Assembly (NCBI GenBank): GCA_016209385.1
Contig: JACQWB010000215.1
Location: forward strand, 1 to 48,617
DNA: 48,617 nt
Direction of reading: 5' to 3'
Source: Candidatus Rokuibacteriota bacterium
GTDB lineage: Bacteria; Methylomirabilota; Methylomirabilia; Rokubacteriales; CSP1-6
Part shown: piece by piece, positions 6,609 to 13,024 of the stretch
How positions within the stretch are numbered: the first letter of the stretch is position 1
Layout: the number at the start of each line of letters is the position of its first letter
Translations under genes and position numbers: made by a program
Notes under the pieces: generated by a model
The model's input: the letters and a program-made list of their open reading frames with translations, nothing else
Database searches by the model: none
Told to the model about the DNA's origin: nothing

Positions 6609-6887
6609 ATGAAGCGAACTGTGTCGAGCATCCTGATGGTGGGTGTTCTGGGCTTGGCCGTGCTCTTCGCCGGGACGCCCGTTCCCGTGGGCTCGCCGGC
6701 TTACGCGGAGGTCACGGAGAAGCAGCTGATGGACCAGCTCAGCAAGATCAAGAAGATCGTATCCGACATTGAAACGAAGATGAAGTCGAAGAAGATGATG
6801 ATGGACGCCATGGGCATGGACAAGACCATGAAGATGCTCGCGGACGTCACAAAGATGCTGGAGGAGGTTTCACGGCAGGCCCCGTAG
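6609..6887 (+). CDS. Secreted methionine-rich protein (MrpX-like)
   Basis: A 92-residue protein with a signal peptide (MKRTVSSILMVGVLGLAVLF, then a probable cleavage after SPAYA at about 33). The mature part, about 59 residues, carries ten methionines, most in the stretch from 58 to 83 (KMKSKKMMMDAMGMDKTMKM), on an amphipathic Lys-rich helix. There is no Cys. AAGGAGGGG lies just before the ATG. Exported Met-rich peptides next to msrPQ are known from the Azospira hypochlorite response (MrpX), where methionine is the sacrificial oxidant sink and MsrPQ regenerates it. Here msrPQ lies 1.7 kb downstream on the same strand, which supports that role. Metal (Cu) binding by the Met cluster is an alternative. 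Confidence 0.7.
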   Translation: MKRTVSSILMVGVLGLAVLFAGTPVPVGSPAYAEVTEKQLMDQLSKIKKIVSDIETKMKSKKMMMDAMGMDKTMKMLADVTKMLEEVSRQAP

Positions 6888-7003: not shown

Positions 7004-7105
7004 ATGCTGGGTGGACACAAGGGCATGATGAAGGGCGGTGGCATGATGAGGCGAGGGGACGGGATGATGGAGGCGGACAAAGACACGATGGAGAAGAAAC
7101 AGTGA
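7004..7105 (+). CDS. Possible Met-rich mini-ORF coupled to peroxiredoxin
   Basis: A 33-codon ORF with repeated Met pairs (GHKGMMKGGGMMRRGDGMME) whose TGA stop overlaps the GTG start of the Sec-peroxiredoxin as GTGA. The Met/Gly/Lys-rich content echoes the secreted Met-rich protein just upstream. There is no signal peptide and no strong Shine-Dalgarno, and the frame stays open upstream of the ATG. It may be a translational-coupling leader or a decayed second Met-rich gene. Confidence 0.35.
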   Translation: MLGGHKGMMKGGGMMRRGDGMMEADKDTMEKKQ

Positions 7106-7629
7106 GACGGCGCCTCCCGGCGCTCGTTCTCGCCGCGCTCCTGTTGGGCGGGCTCGCCCTCCCGGTGTCGGCCGTCGAGGTGGGCGAGAAGGCTCCCGAT
7201 TTCGCTCTGCCGGGTACCCCGGACAAGCCGGTACGCCTGAGCCAGTACGCCGGAAAGCGGGTCGTGGTGCTCCACTTCTACCTCGGCGACTTCCTCAGGG
7301 CCTGAGAGGCCGATCTGGCGTCCCGTCGGGACGGCTACGCGAAGTTCAGGGAGGCCGGCGCCGAGATCCTCGGCGTGAGCGTGGATGCTCCCGCCAAGCA
7401 CCGGCAGTTCCAGGTCCACCTCGGGCTCCCGTTCCCGCTCCTGAGCGACGAGAAGCGACAGGTCATCCGGCGCTACGGCGTTCTCGACGAGACCTGGAAC
7501 CTCGCCAAGCGGTCGTACTTCATCATCGACCGTCAGGGTGTCGTCCGCTTCAAGCGGATCTTCGACGACCCCGTGCGCGTCCTGACCAACGAGGAGTTGC
7601 TGGCGGAGGTGCGGCGCCTCGCGCCGTGA
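7102..7629 (+). CDS. Selenocysteine-containing exported peroxiredoxin
   Basis: One reading frame of 175 residues interrupted only by TGA at 7303-7305 (residue 68). Upstream is a signal peptide (VRRRLPALVLAALLLGGLAL, PVSA) and the thioredoxin-fold start VGEKAPDFALPG. At the active site the frame reads HFYLGDFLRA-U-EADL, which aligns with the BCP/PrxQ pattern FYP-x-x-FTPGC-x-x-E, so TGA sits exactly at the peroxidatic Cys. Downstream follow GVSVDAPAKHRQFQVHLGLP, FPLLSD and SYFIIDRQGVVR, all typical of the family. The protein has no Cys at all, hence no resolving Cys; the Se must be reduced by a partner. A hairpin at 7319-7333 fits a SECIS. The GTG start follows GGAGAAG. Without readthrough the product would be inactive. 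Confidence 0.85.
7303..7305 (+). other. UGA selenocysteine codon (peroxiredoxin)
   Basis: In-frame TGA replacing the peroxidatic Cys codon in FLRA-U-EADL. Both sides of it are well conserved peroxiredoxin sequence in the same frame. Confidence 0.85.
7319..7333 (+). promoter_or_regulatory. Candidate bacterial SECIS (peroxiredoxin)
   Basis: Perfect 6-bp hairpin CGTCCC-GTC-GGGACG. Counting U of UGA as 1, the loop G and U are nucleotides 23 and 24, the same positions as the SelB-contacting G23/U24 of the E. coli fdhF SECIS. Confidence 0.65.
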
Positions 7630-7679
7630 ACGGTGGCGCGGCGCAGGCTTCACCGTACTCCGCCGCGGAGGTGACGGCG

Positions 7680-8219
7680 ATGGAATACCTCAAGGAGACC
7701 GAACGGCCCGGGCCGGCGGTCCGGACATTCTACAAGATCGGCGAGCGGATGTTCGGCAAGGTGCCGACCCCCGAGCGACTCATGGCGCATCGCGTCCCGC
7801 TGATGCTGGGGCTCGGCGGCCTCTACGGCGCCATCGAGTGGTTCGGGACGATCGACGCGCAGCTTCGGGCCCTCCTCAACGTCCAGGTGGCGACGCTCTA
7901 CGGGAGCCCGTACTGAATGGACATCCGGCACGCCGTCGGCGTGAAGGCCGGGATCCCCGCCGAGAAGCTGGCCGCCCTGGGCTCGTACCGGGAGAGCGGA
8001 GCGTTCACGGAGCGCGAGAAGGCGGCGCTGGAGTTCGCGGAGCTGATCAGTCGTGACGATGCGGACGTGTCCGATGCGTGCGTGAGCCGGCTCTCGGAGC
8101 ATTTCTCCGATGGCGAGATCGTCGAGCTGGCGTTCATCGTCGGGTACCAGACCTTCGCCAGCAAGTTCGCCAAGGCCTTCAGGCTCGCGCCCCAGGGCTT
8201 TTCTCCGTCACCCGCATGA
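7680..8219 (+). CDS. Selenocysteine-containing AhpD-like protein
   Basis: About 179 residues of the carboxymuconolactone decarboxylase/AhpD fold, interrupted only by TGA at 7914-7916 (residue 79). The active-site segment reads LLNVQVATLYGSPY-U-MDIRHAVGVKAGI, where relatives have GC-x-(Y/F)-C-(I/M)-D. The TGA therefore replaces the second Cys of the CxxC pair and the first is Ser (SPYU). The C-terminal half (ESGAFTEREKAALEFAELIS, GEIVELAFIVGYQTFASKFA) is normal for the family. A GGAGGTGA lies 5 nt before ATG 7680; a GTG at 7626 overlapping the peroxiredoxin stop (GTGA) is the alternative. No signal peptide, so probably cytoplasmic, unlike the peroxiredoxin. AhpD proteins reduce peroxidases or decompose peroxides; a Se-dependent reductase or peroxidase is likely. 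Confidence 0.83.
7914..7916 (+). other. UGA selenocysteine codon (AhpD-like)
   Basis: In-frame TGA at the second position of the redox pair (SPYU). The next codon is ATG, which makes the 3' half look like a separate gene, but homology runs straight through. Confidence 0.83.
7929..7943 (+). promoter_or_regulatory. Candidate bacterial SECIS (AhpD-like)
   Basis: Perfect 6-bp hairpin CACGCC-GTC-GGCGTG, with the same GTC loop as the peroxiredoxin element. Loop G and U are nucleotides 22 and 23 counted from the U of UGA. Confidence 0.65.
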
Positions 8220-8616: not shown

Positions 8617-9573
8617 ATGCTGATCCGGCGTGCCCCGGACATCAGATCGTCGGAGATCACGGACGCCGCGGTCTACCTGAACCGGCGGTCGTTCATGATC
8701 GGCGTGGCGGCGCTGGCGCTTGCGCCGCCGGGCGCGGCCGCGGCGGCGCCCCCGCCGCCGGCGCAGCCGCTCGAGGCCAAGCGCAGCGCTGAGCTCTCGG
8801 TGGATGATCCGCCGACCAAGTTCGAGAGCGTGACCACGTACAACAACTTCTACGAGTTCGGGCCCAACAAGGACGACCCGGCCCGGCTGGCGCACATGCT
8901 CAGGCCGCGTCCCTGGACCGTCCAGGTGGACGGGCTCGTCGCGCGTCCGCGGCGGTACGACGTGGACGAGCTGATGCGGCTTGCCCCGCTGGAGGAGCGC
9001 GTGTACCGGCTGCGCTGCGTCGAGGGGTGGTCCATGGTGATCCCGTGGATCGGGTACCCGCTGGCGGTGCTCATCAAGCGGGTCGACCCGACGAGCCAGG
9101 CGCGCTTCGTCGAGTTCACGTCGCTCCTGGACCCGGAGCAGTTCCCGGGACAGCGGAAGGGTCTCTTCAGCTTCTCCTCGCTCGACTGGCCGTACGTGGA
9201 GGGGCTGCGGCTCGACGAGGCCCTTCACCCTCTGACGCTGCTGACGTTCGGCCTGTACGGGCGGGTGCTGCCGAACCAGAATGGGGCCCCGGTGCGCGTG
9301 GTCGTACCGTGGAAGTACGGGTTCAAGAGCGCGAAGTCGATCGTCCGGATCCGGTTCGTCAGCGAGCAGCCCCGGGCGACCTGGGAGAAAGCCGCGTCCC
9401 ACGAGTACGGCTTCTACTCCAACGTGAACCCGTCCGAGGATCACCCCCGCTGGAGCCAGGCGACCGAGCGGCGGATCGGCGAGTTTCGCCGGCGGAAGAC
9501 CCTGATGTTCAACGGCTACGCGGACCGGGTGGCGTCGCTGTACGCCGGAATGGACCTCCGGAAGTACTACTAG
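8617..9573 (+). CDS. msrP: MsrP, periplasmic Mo-dependent methionine sulfoxide reductase
   Basis: A 318-residue YedY/MsrP catalytic subunit. It has a Tat signal ([16 protein letters not shown], Ala-rich, Pro-rich linker), then the sulfite-oxidase fold: [40 protein letters not shown], and [19 protein letters not shown], where Cys134 is the molybdenum ligand. The C-terminus has [19 protein letters not shown] and the [20 protein letters not shown] segment diagnostic of MsrP. It repairs Met-sulfoxide (both R and S) in envelope proteins using electrons from quinol through MsrQ. AGGAGGGACGT precedes the ATG; msrQ starts 4 nt after the stop. Confidence 0.95.
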
Positions 9574-9577
9574 CCGC

Positions 9578-10255
9578 ATGTCCCGGCGCGCTCGGATCGT
9601 CCTGAAGGCGGCGGTGTGGGCGGCGTGCCTGTTCCCGCTCGCGCGCCTCCTCTATGAGTTCCACGCCGACGGCCTCGGCGCCAACCCGATCGATCACGTG
9701 ACGCGCACGCTCGGCGACTGGACGCTCCGGATCCTCCTCACGGCCCTGGCGCTGACCCCGCTCCGCCTCCTGTTCGGGATCTCCTGGCAGCTCAGCCTCC
9801 GGCGCCTCCTCGGGCTCTTCGCGTTCTTCTACGCGTGCCTGCACTTCGCTGTCTGGATCGTCCTGGACCATTTCTTCGACTGGCCTCAGATGTTCGCCGA
9901 TGTCATGAAGCGCCCGTACATCACGGTCGGCGTGCTCGCGCTGACCCTGCTCGTGCCGCTCGCCGCGACCTCGACGACGCGCATGGTGAAGCGCCTCGGC
10001 GGGCAGACCTGGCGGCGGCTTCACCGGCTGGTCTACGTCGTCGGCGTGCTGGCAGTGCTCCACTACCTGTGGCTCGCCAAGAAAGGCGTGGACGACCCGT
10101 ACTGGTACGCCTGCGTGCTGGTGGTCCTGCTCGGGGCCCGTGTGGTGGACTGGGGCCGGCGCCTCGCGGGGCGGCGCGGCCGGGCGGCGGACGCCGCGGC
10201 CGAGATGCGCCCCATCGGGCGCCTGCGCGGCGCCCCCGGGAGGACGCCGCCGTGA
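9578..10255 (+). CDS. msrQ: MsrQ, heme-binding membrane subunit
   Basis: A 225-residue membrane protein of the ferric-reductase-like transmembrane family with about six helices. Conserved His residues sit in LLGLFAFFYACLHFAVWIVL and RRLHRLVYVVGVLAVLHYLW, expected heme ligands, and SLRRLLGL marks the cytoplasmic loop. MsrQ passes electrons from the quinone pool or a flavin reductase to MsrP. Encoded directly behind msrP; its TGA overlaps the GTG of the Sec-thioredoxin (GTGA), so the three are translationally coupled. Confidence 0.93.
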   Translation: MSRRARIVLKAAVWAACLFPLARLLYEFHADGLGANPIDHVTRTLGDWTLRILLTALALTPLRLLFGISWQLSLRRLLGLFAFFYACLHFAVWIVLDHFFDWPQMFADVMKRPYITVGVLALTLLVPLAATSTTRMVKRLGGQTWRRLHRLVYVVGVLAVLHYLWLAKKGVDDPYWYACVLVVLLGARVVDWGRRLAGRRGRAADAAAEMRPIGRLRGAPGRTPP

Positions 10256-10782
10256 CGCCGGGGCGGCTGGCCGCGGCGACGCTCGCGCTCCTGATCGGGC
10301 TGGCGTTGCCTCCGGGTGCGGGCGCCCAGCGCGGCGCCCGGGTCGGGCTCCCCGCGCCCGAGATCACCGGGGCGTCCTGGATCAACAGCGAGCCGCTGTC
10401 GCGCGAGAAGCTCCGCGGCCGCGTCATCTTCGTGGAGTTCTGGACGTACGGCTGAATCAATTGCCAGAACGTGATCCCGCAGTTGCGGGTCTGGCACGAG
10501 AAGTACGCGGAGGCGGGACTGACGATCGTGGGGGTGCACACCCCTGAATTCTTCTGGGAGAAGCCCTACGAGAAGGTCGTGGCGACGACGAAACGGTTCG
10601 GGATTCTCTACCCGGTCGTGCAGGACAACGACTACGCCATCTGGAAGCGGTTCGGCGTCTGGGCGTGGCCGACGGCGGTCCTGGTGGACCGGAAGGGGAT
10701 CGTCCGCTACCAACACATCGGTGAGGGTGCCTACGCCGAGACCGAGTCCGTGATCCGGCGCCTCCTGGCAGAGGGGGGATGA
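10252..10782 (+). CDS. Selenocysteine-containing TlpA-like thiol-disulfide protein
   Basis: A 176-residue thioredoxin-fold protein interrupted only by TGA at 10453-10455 (residue 68). It begins with a signal peptide (RLAAATLALLIGLALPPGAG). The active site reads VEFWTYG-U-INCQNVIPQL, aligning with the FWTYxCINC motif of DipZ/TlpA-type proteins, so Sec replaces the first, nucleophilic Cys (UxxC). The family's later motifs follow: TIVGVHTPEFFWEKPYEKV, YPVVQDNDYAIWKRFGVWAW, then the cis-Pro in WPTAVLVDRKG. The start is GTG overlapping the msrQ stop; the stop overlaps the ATG of the kinase gene. Likely periplasmic, reducing the Sec-peroxiredoxin or other envelope targets. Confidence 0.87.
10453..10455 (+). 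other. UGA selenocysteine codon (TlpA-like)
   Basis: In-frame TGA at the N-terminal Cys of the CxxC motif, giving UINC. Confidence 0.87.
10476..10489 (+). promoter_or_regulatory. Candidate bacterial SECIS (TlpA-like)
   Basis: Hairpin CCCGC-AGTT-GCGGG, 20 nt after the UGA. The apical loop contains GU at nucleotides 30-31 from the U of UGA, within the accepted bacterial SECIS range. Confidence 0.6.
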
Positions 10783-12314
10783 CGATCCGCCCGGGCTCGC
10801 CGCTGGCCCGGTTCTCCGCCTTCGCCCTCCTGGCGATCGTCCTTCCCGCCGCCATCCTGGCCGTCCTCGGCTACCTCTCGCTCCGCCAGTGGGAAACCTC
10901 CGCCGAGCTGCTGTTCAGGGAGCAGGCCCGGGACATGGCGGCCATGGCGGCGGAGAAGGTGGAGATGGTCCTCGTCCGCGCCGAGGACGAGCTCCTGGGG
11001 CGGATCCAGTCGAGCCTGGAACGCCCTGACTTTGCCCCTGCCTCCCTCGCGCAGCTCCTGGCTTCCGCGCCGTTGATCCGGCAGCTCCATCTCCTCGACC
11101 GCGAGGCCCACCTCCTCTTCCCGCTGCCCGGCACCGGGGCAGACCCGGGCATCGTCTCGGGGCTCCTGGCCGAGATCCCGTACGGATTCTGGGAGCGGGG
11201 CGGCAGGCGTCGCCTGCTCGTGGGCGATCACGTGGTCCTGGCCGCGGTCCTGAGGGTCCCGGGCAAGTCCCCGGTGCTCGCCGCGCTCTCCTGGGACCCC
11301 GAGGCGCTCCGGCGGGAGATCCTGGCCCGGACCCTCGGCACGCTCGAGGGGCCGAGCATCCTCGCCGTCGTAGACCGCGAGGGTCGGCCGGTCTACAGTC
11401 GCCAGCCGCTCGATCGGGCCGAGCGGGTCGTGACTGTGAGCTTCGGCGAGGCGCTCCCGTTCTGGCGGGTCGCGCTCTACCGGCCCCACGGGATGTCCCC
11501 GCGCGACGCGGTCCGCCGCCAGGTCGTGATCTTCACCGTCGCCTTCGGCCTCCTGCTGCTCGTGATCGTGGTCGGGCTCGTCGCAACCTATCGCGTGGTG
11601 CGCCGCGAGACCGACATGGCACGGCTCAGAGCCGACTTCGTCGCGAACGTGTCGCACGACCTCAAGACGCCGCTCTCGCTCATCCGGATGTTCGGCGAGA
11701 CGCTCGAGCTGGGGCGGGTGGGTGACGAGGCCAAGCGCCAGGAGTATTACCGCGTGATCACGCGGGAGAGCGAGCGCCTCTCCCGGCTGATCGACAACGT
11801 CCTGGACTTCTCGCGGATCGAGGGAGGCCGTCGGGCATACGTCATGACGCCCACGGCGGTGGAGCCGCTCATCGGCGAGACCCTGAAGGCGTTCAGCTAC
11901 CCGCTCACCCAGCAGGGGTTCAAGGTGGAGGTGAGCGTGGCACCCGGTCTCCCCGAAGTCCCCATGGACGCCGACGCGGTCGGCCAGGCGCTCGCGAACC
12001 TCGTGGACAACGCGATCAAGTATTCGGCGAGCCGGAAGGCGCTCCGGGTGGAAGCCGTCGCGCGGGTCGGCCACCTTGCGCTGTCGGTGGCTGACGAGGG
12101 AGTCGGGATTCCCGCGGAGGAGCAGGGGAGGATCTTCGAGAAGTTCTACCGTGTAGGGCGGAGCGAGACGCAGGGACGGCGCGGCAGCGGCGTCGGGCTG
12201 GCGCTCGTGCGCCACATCGCGGAGGCCCACGGCGGGCGGGTGACGGTGGAGAGCCGGCTCGGGGAAGGGAGCTGCTTCACGCTCTGGATTCCCCTGGAGC
12301 CCCAGACGCGCTGA
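10779..12314 (+). CDS. Sensor histidine kinase
   Basis: A 511-residue membrane kinase. TM1 is at about residues 12-36, followed by an extracytoplasmic sensor region of about 200 residues (up to about 245), then TM2 (VVIFTVAFGLLLLVIVVGLV). The HisKA box is FVANVSHDLKTPLSLIRMF, with phospho-acceptor His293; N box LANLVDNAIKYS; G1 box VADEGVGIPAEEQGRIFEKF; G2 GSGVGLALVRHIAEAHGG. Its ATG overlaps the stop of the Sec-thioredoxin, tying it to the oxidant-defence genes. In E. coli, msrPQ is likewise controlled by the adjacent HprS/HprR pair, so this kinase probably senses envelope oxidants. Confidence 0.92.
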   Translation: MTIRPGSPLARFSAFALLAIVLPAAILAVLGYLSLRQWETSAELLFREQARDMAAMAAEKVEMVLVRAEDELLGRIQSSLERPDFAPASLAQLLASAPLIRQLHLLDREAHLLFPLPGTGADPGIVSGLLAEIPYGFWERGGRRRLLVGDHVVLAAVLRVPGKSPVLAALSWDPEALRREILARTLGTLEGPSILAVVDREGRPVYSRQPLDRAERVVTVSFGEALPFWRVALYRPHGMSPRDAVRRQVVIFTVAFGLLLLVIVVGLVATYRVVRRETDMARLRADFVANVSHDLKTPLSLIRMFGETLELGRVGDEAKRQEYYRVITRESERLSRLIDNVLDFSRIEGGRRAYVMTPTAVEPLIGETLKAFSYPLTQQGFKVEVSVAPGLPEVPMDADAVGQALANLVDNAIKYSASRKALRVEAVARVGHLALSVADEGVGIPAEEQGRIFEKFYRVGRSETQGRRGSGVGLALVRHIAEAHGGRVTVESRLGEGSCFTLWIPLEPQTR

Positions 12315-12322
12315 GGCATCCG

Positions 12323-13024
12323 GTGCCCCGGATCCTGATCGTGGACGACGAGCCCGAGATGGTGCGGGGGCTCGAGGACAACCTCCGCTTCGAGGGGTAC
12401 GGGACGCTCGCGGCGACCAACGGCCGGGACGGGCTCGCGCTGGCGCTGAGCGAGGTGCCGGACCTGATCGTGCTCGACGTCATGATGCCGGAGATGAGCG
12501 GCTGGGACGTGCTCCGGGCCCTCCGTCAGAAGCGGATCGACGTCCCGGTGATCATGCTGACGGCGCGCGGCGAGGAGCTGGACCGGGTCCTCGGGCTCGA
12601 GCTGGGCGCCGACGACTACGTGACGAAGCCGTTCGCGCTCCGCGAGCTGCTGGCGCGGGTACGGGCCGTGCTCCGCCGGCCGGGCCCCCGGCAGAAGTTC
12701 GAGGAGGTGGCCTTCGGCGACGTCCGCCTCCACCTCCGGGCGCGGCAGGTCTTCAAGGCGGGCACGGAGGTCCGGCTGACCCGCAAGGAGTTCGACCTGC
12801 TCCGCTACCTGGTCGAGCACCGCGGCGAGGTCCTGACCCGCGAGCGCCTCCTGGACGAGGTCTGGGGCTACGAGCACTTTCCCACGACGCGCACCGTGGA
12901 CACCCACATCCTCCGGCTCCGGCAGAAGTTCGAGCAGGACCCCGAGCGCCCGCGCTACATCCTGACCGTCCACGGCCAGGGGTACAAGTTCGCGGGGATG
13001 GACACGCCCTCCGCCACCCGCTGA
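12323..13024 (+). CDS. OmpR/PhoB-family response regulator
   Basis: A 233-residue regulator. Receiver domain with acidic pocket ILIVDDE, phospho-acceptor Asp52 in LIVLDVMMPEMSG and Lys in ADDYVTKPF; winged-helix output domain with LTRKEFDLLRYLVEHRGEVL and RTVDTHILRLRQKFEQDP. It starts at GTG 12323, 8 nt after the kinase stop. Likely activates the upstream Met-rich, Sec and msrPQ genes. The 29-bp repeats before msrP are a candidate binding site. Confidence 0.93.
   Translation: MPRILIVDDEPEMVRGLEDNLRFEGYGTLAATNGRDGLALALSEVPDLIVLDVMMPEMSGWDVLRALRQKRIDVPVIMLTARGEELDRVLGLELGADDYVTKPFALRELLARVRAVLRRPGPRQKFEEVAFGDVRLHLRARQVFKAGTEVRLTRKEFDLLRYLVEHRGEVLTRERLLDEVWGYEHFPTTRTVDTHILRLRQKFEQDPERPRYILTVHGQGYKFAGMDTPSATR

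Follow-up and report, generated by a model that had tools for sequence, protein, structure and literature searches.

A predicted exported DipZ-like selenoprotein, TlpU, encoded beside msrPQ in Rokubacteria

The window, by which we mean the whole 48,617-nt stretch of contig JACQWB010000215.1 (assembly GCA_016209385.1, Candidatus Rokuibacteriota bacterium), carries on one strand (+) the genes msrP, msrQ, a thioredoxin-fold gene designated here tlpU, a sensor histidine kinase and an OmpR-type regulator. These genes and the features around them are as follows.

6609-6887, + strand: Met-rich protein, predicted to be exported; a homologue precedes msrP in genome G018
7004-7105, + strand: short Met-rich ORF whose stop overlaps the prxU start; like the C-terminal part of the Met-rich ORFs preceding tlpU in relatives
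7102-7629, + strand: prxU, predicted exported peroxiredoxin-like selenoprotein, in-frame TGA at 7303-7305 (Pfam AhpC-TSA)
7626-8219, + strand: cmdU, predicted CMD/AhpD-like selenoprotein, in-frame TGA at 7914-7916 (SPYU-MDIRHAVG; Pfam CMD)
8617-9573, + strand: msrP, molybdoenzyme with a twin-arginine signal (RRSFMIG) by inspection (NCBIfam NF003767)
9578-10255, + strand: msrQ, haem-binding membrane subunit (NCBIfam NF003831)
10252-10782, + strand: tlpU, predicted exported DipZ-like thioredoxin-fold selenoprotein with a UINC active site, translated with TGA as U
10453-10455, + strand: TGA codon for selenocysteine (Sec) at residue 68 of TlpU; kept in relatives, or TGC in genus g6
10462-10496, + strand: SECIS-like stem-loop, core CCCGC-AGUU-GCGGG, with a fold z of -2.93 and synonymous constraint
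10779-12314, + strand: sensor histidine kinase (HisKA and HATPase_c), recurring beside tlpU
12323-13024, + strand: OmpR-type response regulator (Response_reg and Trans_reg_C), recurring beside tlpU

The TGA stop of msrQ shares the letters GTGA with the GTG start of tlpU at 10252, and the stop of tlpU (10780-10782) shares ATGA with the ATG of the histidine kinase gene at 10779, each being a 4-nt overlap; the original prediction had these coordinates and overlaps exactly right. When TGA is read as U, the window translates from this GTG into a TlpU of 176 residues (VTPGRLAAATLALLIGLALPPGAGAQ...VEFWTYG-U-INCQNVIPQL...), in which U replaces the nucleophilic, N-terminal Cys of a CxxC motif, giving the UINC that had been predicted. 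By inspection the N-terminus reads as a signal peptide, and TlpU would then be an exported protein.

A TlpU homologue (E<=1e-30) was found in 58 of the 95 genomes of the phylum (Methylomirabilota/Rokubacteria), and the named MAGs with TlpU that a pattern scan returned belong mostly to Candidatus Rokuibacteriota. The active-site codon is TGA in 54 of the 59 fetched homologous loci of the phylum, the remaining five being two Cys orthologues, two loci truncated before the site and one Cys paralogue, so that, of the 56 orthologues fetched whose active site is intact, all but two have TGA. Both exceptions, G046 and G047, belong to genus g6, use TGC, have msrPQ adjoining and retain selB (partial in G047). 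Exchange between Sec and Cys in clear orthologues is characteristic of genuine selenoproteins, and here an in-frame UGA at the redox position is matched by Cys in some orthologues. The original prediction would have fallen had the TGA come from a sequencing error or had the position not been conserved as Cys or Sec; a sequencing error is ruled out as the same codon recurs in 54 loci, conservation as Cys or Sec is borne out by the 54 TGA and two Cys codons, and chance is no explanation for it. In the genome of the window (assembly of 4.57 Mb, 95% complete), contig C51 carries selB, selA and a tRNA-Sec whose anticodon is TCA, and contig C175 carries selD, a gene that also contains an in-frame TGA, which completes the set selA, selB, selC and selD; SelB is present in 84 of the 95 genomes. 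At the level of sequence, decoding of the tlpU TGA as selenocysteine is strongly supported. Some variants were seen among the homologues. Two loci of family f6 (L125 and L128) have UINS as active site, the resolving Cys being replaced by Ser and the Sec kept, and in genome G072 (L063/L143) in-frame internal deletions have removed the whole active site from a tlpU whose msrPQ and histidine kinase-response regulator flanks are intact, the gene being either decayed or mis-assembled. Genome G000 is rich in selenoproteins, having further thioredoxin-like homologues with one in-frame TGA besides a selD with an in-frame TGA (C274:19330, C110:14597, C32:7661, C277:5447 and C175:5104).

The 50 nt from the TGA were predicted by RNA folding to form a stem-loop of -18.8 kcal/mol (z -2.93), with CCCGC/GCGGG as upper stem and the loop AGUU from 25 nt after the UGA. 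Codons +8 to +11 (CCG CAG TTG CGG) have zero synonymous variants among 42 Sec genes from the group, and TTG is used for Leu in this hairpin core even in high-GC genomes; elsewhere in tlpU most conserved four- or six-fold degenerate codons vary freely in these genes. The Cys gene L096 has three of the four core codons altered (CCA CAG CTC AAA), and the Cys gene L088 has lost only the loop G (CAA) and still folds a strong hairpin. Distant Sec members have other stems (CCCUGGGUCAGGG, GCCUUGGGUCAAGGC and CCACAGUUGGUGG), and RNAalifold returned no structure from the mixed 29-sequence alignment, probably because some of the distant members pair one base out of register. Covariation counts taken at one fixed register were mixed, a synonymous recoding test gave a moderate result (mean apical z -2.1; 18 of 56 at p<=0.05) and Rfam had zero matches in the window at the gathering threshold. 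Since alignment-wide covariation is mixed and RNAalifold was blank, it is the synonymous constraint, standing beside the folding z score, that forms the strongest RNA evidence for a SECIS-like element.

The original prediction described the product as TlpA-like, which holds for the fold; its nearest relative, however, is the C-terminal domain of DipZ and not TlpA proper. AhpC-TSA was the best of three Pfam matches on TlpU, the others being Thioredoxin_8 and Redoxin, and no NCBIfam model reached its cut-off. By sequence, M. tuberculosis DipZ supplies the best solved relative, in its C-terminal part (2hyx, E 2e-36), and a search with an AlphaFold model of TlpU, built from 28 homologues with a mean pLDDT of 89.9, ranked the same DipZ structures at the top (E about 1e-17), followed by NHLRC2, the SOQ1 quenching protein and ResA. 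Residues W64, T65, G67, U/C68, N70, H96, P98 to F100, D125, N126, W139, P140 and G157 to G159 are invariant in TlpU, and the motifs FW-Y-CINCQ, GVHTPE, the WP loop and GEG are common to TlpU and the DipZ domain (PDB 2HYX/5CYY), which has CxxC where TlpU has UxxC. The thioredoxin domain of DipZ is fused to a membrane domain, and the solved DipZ region runs past the thioredoxin domain, whereas TlpU is stand-alone and linked to msrPQ. Both sequence and modelled fold thus place TlpU nearest to that branch of the TlpA family which contains DipZ and is driven by CcdA. At locus L118 (family f6) the gene immediately upstream of tlpU is a DsbD_TM gene, and a similar ORF takes the same place at L129, as if DipZ had been split in two; the window genome has three DsbD_TM matches, all on contigs other than that of the window. 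Cys relatives annotated as DipZ on two annotated Alphaproteobacteria plasmids do not have msrPQ adjoining. At L132 (4095-5570) and L133 (genomes G016 and G018) a Sec domain (WTYC-U-INC) opens a much longer protein, which looks like an NHL-repeat protein of the NHLRC2/SOQ1 type.

The msrP and msrQ genes were identified well above the NCBIfam cut-offs, MsrP with 471.5 bits against 207 for NF003767 and MsrQ with 169 bits against 130 for NF003831. We surveyed 43 fetched loci of the Rokubacteria family, leaving out the window itself and one additional listed locus that belongs to no member of the family, and counted msrP as linked when it lay on the strand of tlpU within 5 kb. By this measure msrP is linked to tlpU at 33 of the 43 loci, in three orders: tlpU-HK-RR-msrP(-msrQ), where HK and RR are the histidine kinase and response regulator genes, at 18 loci; tlpU-msrP-msrQ without HK-RR at 13; and msrP-msrQ-tlpU-HK-RR, as in the window, at two. 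Of the ten unlinked loci, three run into the end of their contig, about five show a different PF00174 molybdoenzyme where msrP would be and two have neither. This other PF00174 molybdoenzyme, of about 213 aa, stands in the place of msrP at L095, L098, L099, L107 and L115, and the genomes concerned have a canonical msrP elsewhere. An Anaerolineales MAG has a Sec tlpU, msrP and msrQ in succession, about 255 nt separating msrP from the gene before it. That the linkage is kept across different gene orders argues for a functional tie, and the 13 loci without HK-RR show it to be independent of the two-component genes; linkage of tlpU with msrPQ is strongly supported. On the other hand, G081 and G094 have msrP-msrQ-HK-RR without an adjoining tlpU, other genomes have msrPQ alone with no TlpU adjoining, and the Sec gene lies away from msrPQ in families f6 and f10. 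TlpU is therefore a frequent partner of msrPQ, as the original prediction of a coupling would have it, but not the obligatory third subunit that had also been suggested.

Two further groups of genes beside the unit, cmdU and the Met-rich ORFs, had no mention in the original prediction. cmdU sits between prxU and msrP, and its product matches Pfam CMD with 30 bits against a cut-off of 23; ORF calling splits the gene in two at its TGA, a codon kept in many genomes of the phylum. It lies beside tlpU or msrPQ in G072, G065, G066 and G040, and in the window three Sec genes (prxU, cmdU and tlpU) fall within 3.7 kb. prxU adjoins the unit in the window but is not conserved in it. The one close PrxU orthologue found (82%) is that of G094, a genome lacking a TlpU match at 1e-30, and PrxU is absent within about 6 kb of tlpU from every other TlpU locus fetched; the suggested test, whether TlpU is always present when the peroxiredoxin is, thus has a negative outcome. 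In about a dozen relatives the start of tlpU coincides with the end of a Met/Lys/Asp-rich ORF whose product looks secreted or lipoprotein-like, and in family f6 such an ORF lies just downstream of tlpU. The product of 6609-6887 shares 50% identity with that of an L154 ORF which precedes msrP by about 0.46 kb, and two of the Met-rich ORFs match TIGR02953 (the MXKDX repeat family) below its cut-off. These ORFs are of low complexity and were recognised at only about a third of family loci.

MsrPQ carries out periplasmic methionine sulfoxide repair without thiols. In E. coli msrPQ adjoins HprSR, a two-component system of the OmpR type that responds to hypochlorous acid; that unit is not known to include a thioredoxin-like gene or a Met-rich peptide. 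Hypochlorous acid induces the Brucella operon bcrXQP, which joins a Met-rich MXKDX peptide to MsrQP and contributes to resistance, and its Azospira homologue MrpX is described as scavenging hypochlorite by sacrificial oxidation (PMC8315932). The Rokubacteria loci would resemble the Brucella and Azospira systems in a putative Met-rich secreted peptide beside MsrPQ and a possible setting of hypochlorous-acid defence, and differ in having two-component genes where an ECF sigma factor is in control, and a selenothioredoxin where the available part of that account mentions no thioredoxin or selenoprotein (PMC8315932).

Since the parts are those of bcrXQP, here with a two-component system, an envelope oxidant-defence unit is the most economical reading, and on balance we favour TlpU as the cysteine-repair arm of such a periplasmic unit, a stand-alone selenol reductase of the DipZ type. 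TlpU would be the DipZ thioredoxin domain in exported, free-standing form, would probably receive its electrons through the membrane from a protein of the CcdA/DsbD type, and could act as a fast selenol reductase for oxidised periplasmic cysteines and possibly for small oxidants too. MsrP and MsrQ would meanwhile repair methionine sulfoxide with electrons from the quinone pool, the secreted Met-rich peptide may act as an oxidant sink that can be regenerated, and the two-component pair of histidine kinase and response regulator would sense the stress and induce the genes of the unit, TlpU thereby adding repair of Cys to an otherwise Met-repairing system. The electron donor, the substrate and the inducer (hypochlorous acid or similar) are what we infer for TlpU. 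Besides the Sec machinery and orthologues, the constrained hairpin, the DipZ kinship and the msrP linkage in Rokubacteria and in the Anaerolineales MAG, we counted for this model the Met-rich peptide at the tlpU start, which would match bcrXQP (PMC8315932), and, as regards CcdA/DsbD-type reduction, the DsbD_TM gene just upstream of tlpU at L118; against it we counted the msrPQ-HK-RR units that lack TlpU, the f6 and f10 copies away from msrPQ, the scarcity and low complexity of the Met-rich ORF and the mixed covariation of the hairpin. For the Rokubacteria unit as a whole we put forward, more tentatively and at somewhat short of even confidence, that the two-component system controls a Met-rich sacrificial peptide, MsrPQ and the selenothioredoxin for joint repair of Met and Cys with selenium as the fast catalyst, and that in some lineages the unit may also include the Sec CMD/AhpD-like and Sec peroxiredoxin proteins.

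The main rival holds that TlpU is chiefly a peroxidase, in which the U68 selenol reduces peroxides or hypochlorous acid and Cys71 resolves, chemistry of a type proposed for Prx-like UxxC selenoproteins. AhpC-TSA being the best Pfam match, the preference of Sec for fast reaction with oxidants and the oxidant-defence setting all agree with it, as do the UINS sites of L125 and L128, which without a resolving Cys fit one-selenol chemistry; but the nearest relatives are DipZ and ResA-type thiol-disulfide oxidoreductases, the Trx-like CxxC/UxxC and W-P loop are invariant and a DsbD_TM gene adjoins tlpU at L118, and we regard a primarily peroxidatic role as unlikely. Less probable still is a different exported redox function for TlpU, such as maturation of cytochrome c or of copper sites, msrPQ being merely co-regulated by the same two-component system: the homology to ResA and DipZ, the HK-RR genes common to many tlpU loci and the unlinked copies in f6 and f10 would fit, and yet at 13 loci tlpU lies directly beside msrP without HK-RR and the tlpU-msrP linkage outlasts changes of order. 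That the TGA is a true stop and tlpU a pseudogene or two fragments, as table 11, which reads a stop there, and a GTG ORF beginning at 10471 might suggest, is highly improbable against 54 loci keeping the TGA with protein conserved on both sides, Cys orthologues, a complete Sec machinery in the window genome and synonymous constraint directly 3' of the codon.

Sec thioredoxin-like UxxC proteins are a long-known class (PMC13188914, PMC2398784), and TlpU shares with the prokaryotic Trx-like, Prx-like and redoxin members the thioredoxin fold, the Sec placed first in UxxC and a SECIS just after the UGA. As far as the available parts of these two sources go, they describe no msrPQ, two-component or Met-rich-peptide setting such as TlpU has; the former lists Sec UxxC families, notes gene clusters of Prx-like and AhpD-like selenoproteins and cites 63 predicted selenoprotein genes in one Methylomirabilota MAG (PMC13188914). 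The literature searched, of incomplete coverage, yielded no DipZ-type selenoprotein tied to msrPQ, and papers on selenoproteins and MsrP, or on selenocysteine and DipZ or YedY, do not report the linkage in title or abstract. Of the view that a Sec thioredoxin with msrPQ was undescribed, it is the setting that holds within the literature searched, the UxxC class itself being known. Returning to the proposed envelope oxidant-defence unit, a conserved selenothioredoxin within it suggests that repair of Cys and Met is coordinated in the envelope, and the unit places thioredoxin-like selenoproteins, a class so far met chiefly in catalogues, in a functional context. The Cys-bearing, msrPQ-linked orthologues of genus g6 offer natural Sec/Cys comparisons for what selenium buys. 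In a phylum reported to reach very large selenoproteomes, the finding suggests use of selenium in the envelope, and with it a selenium-dependent branch of envelope oxidant defence in this uncultured soil and groundwater group.
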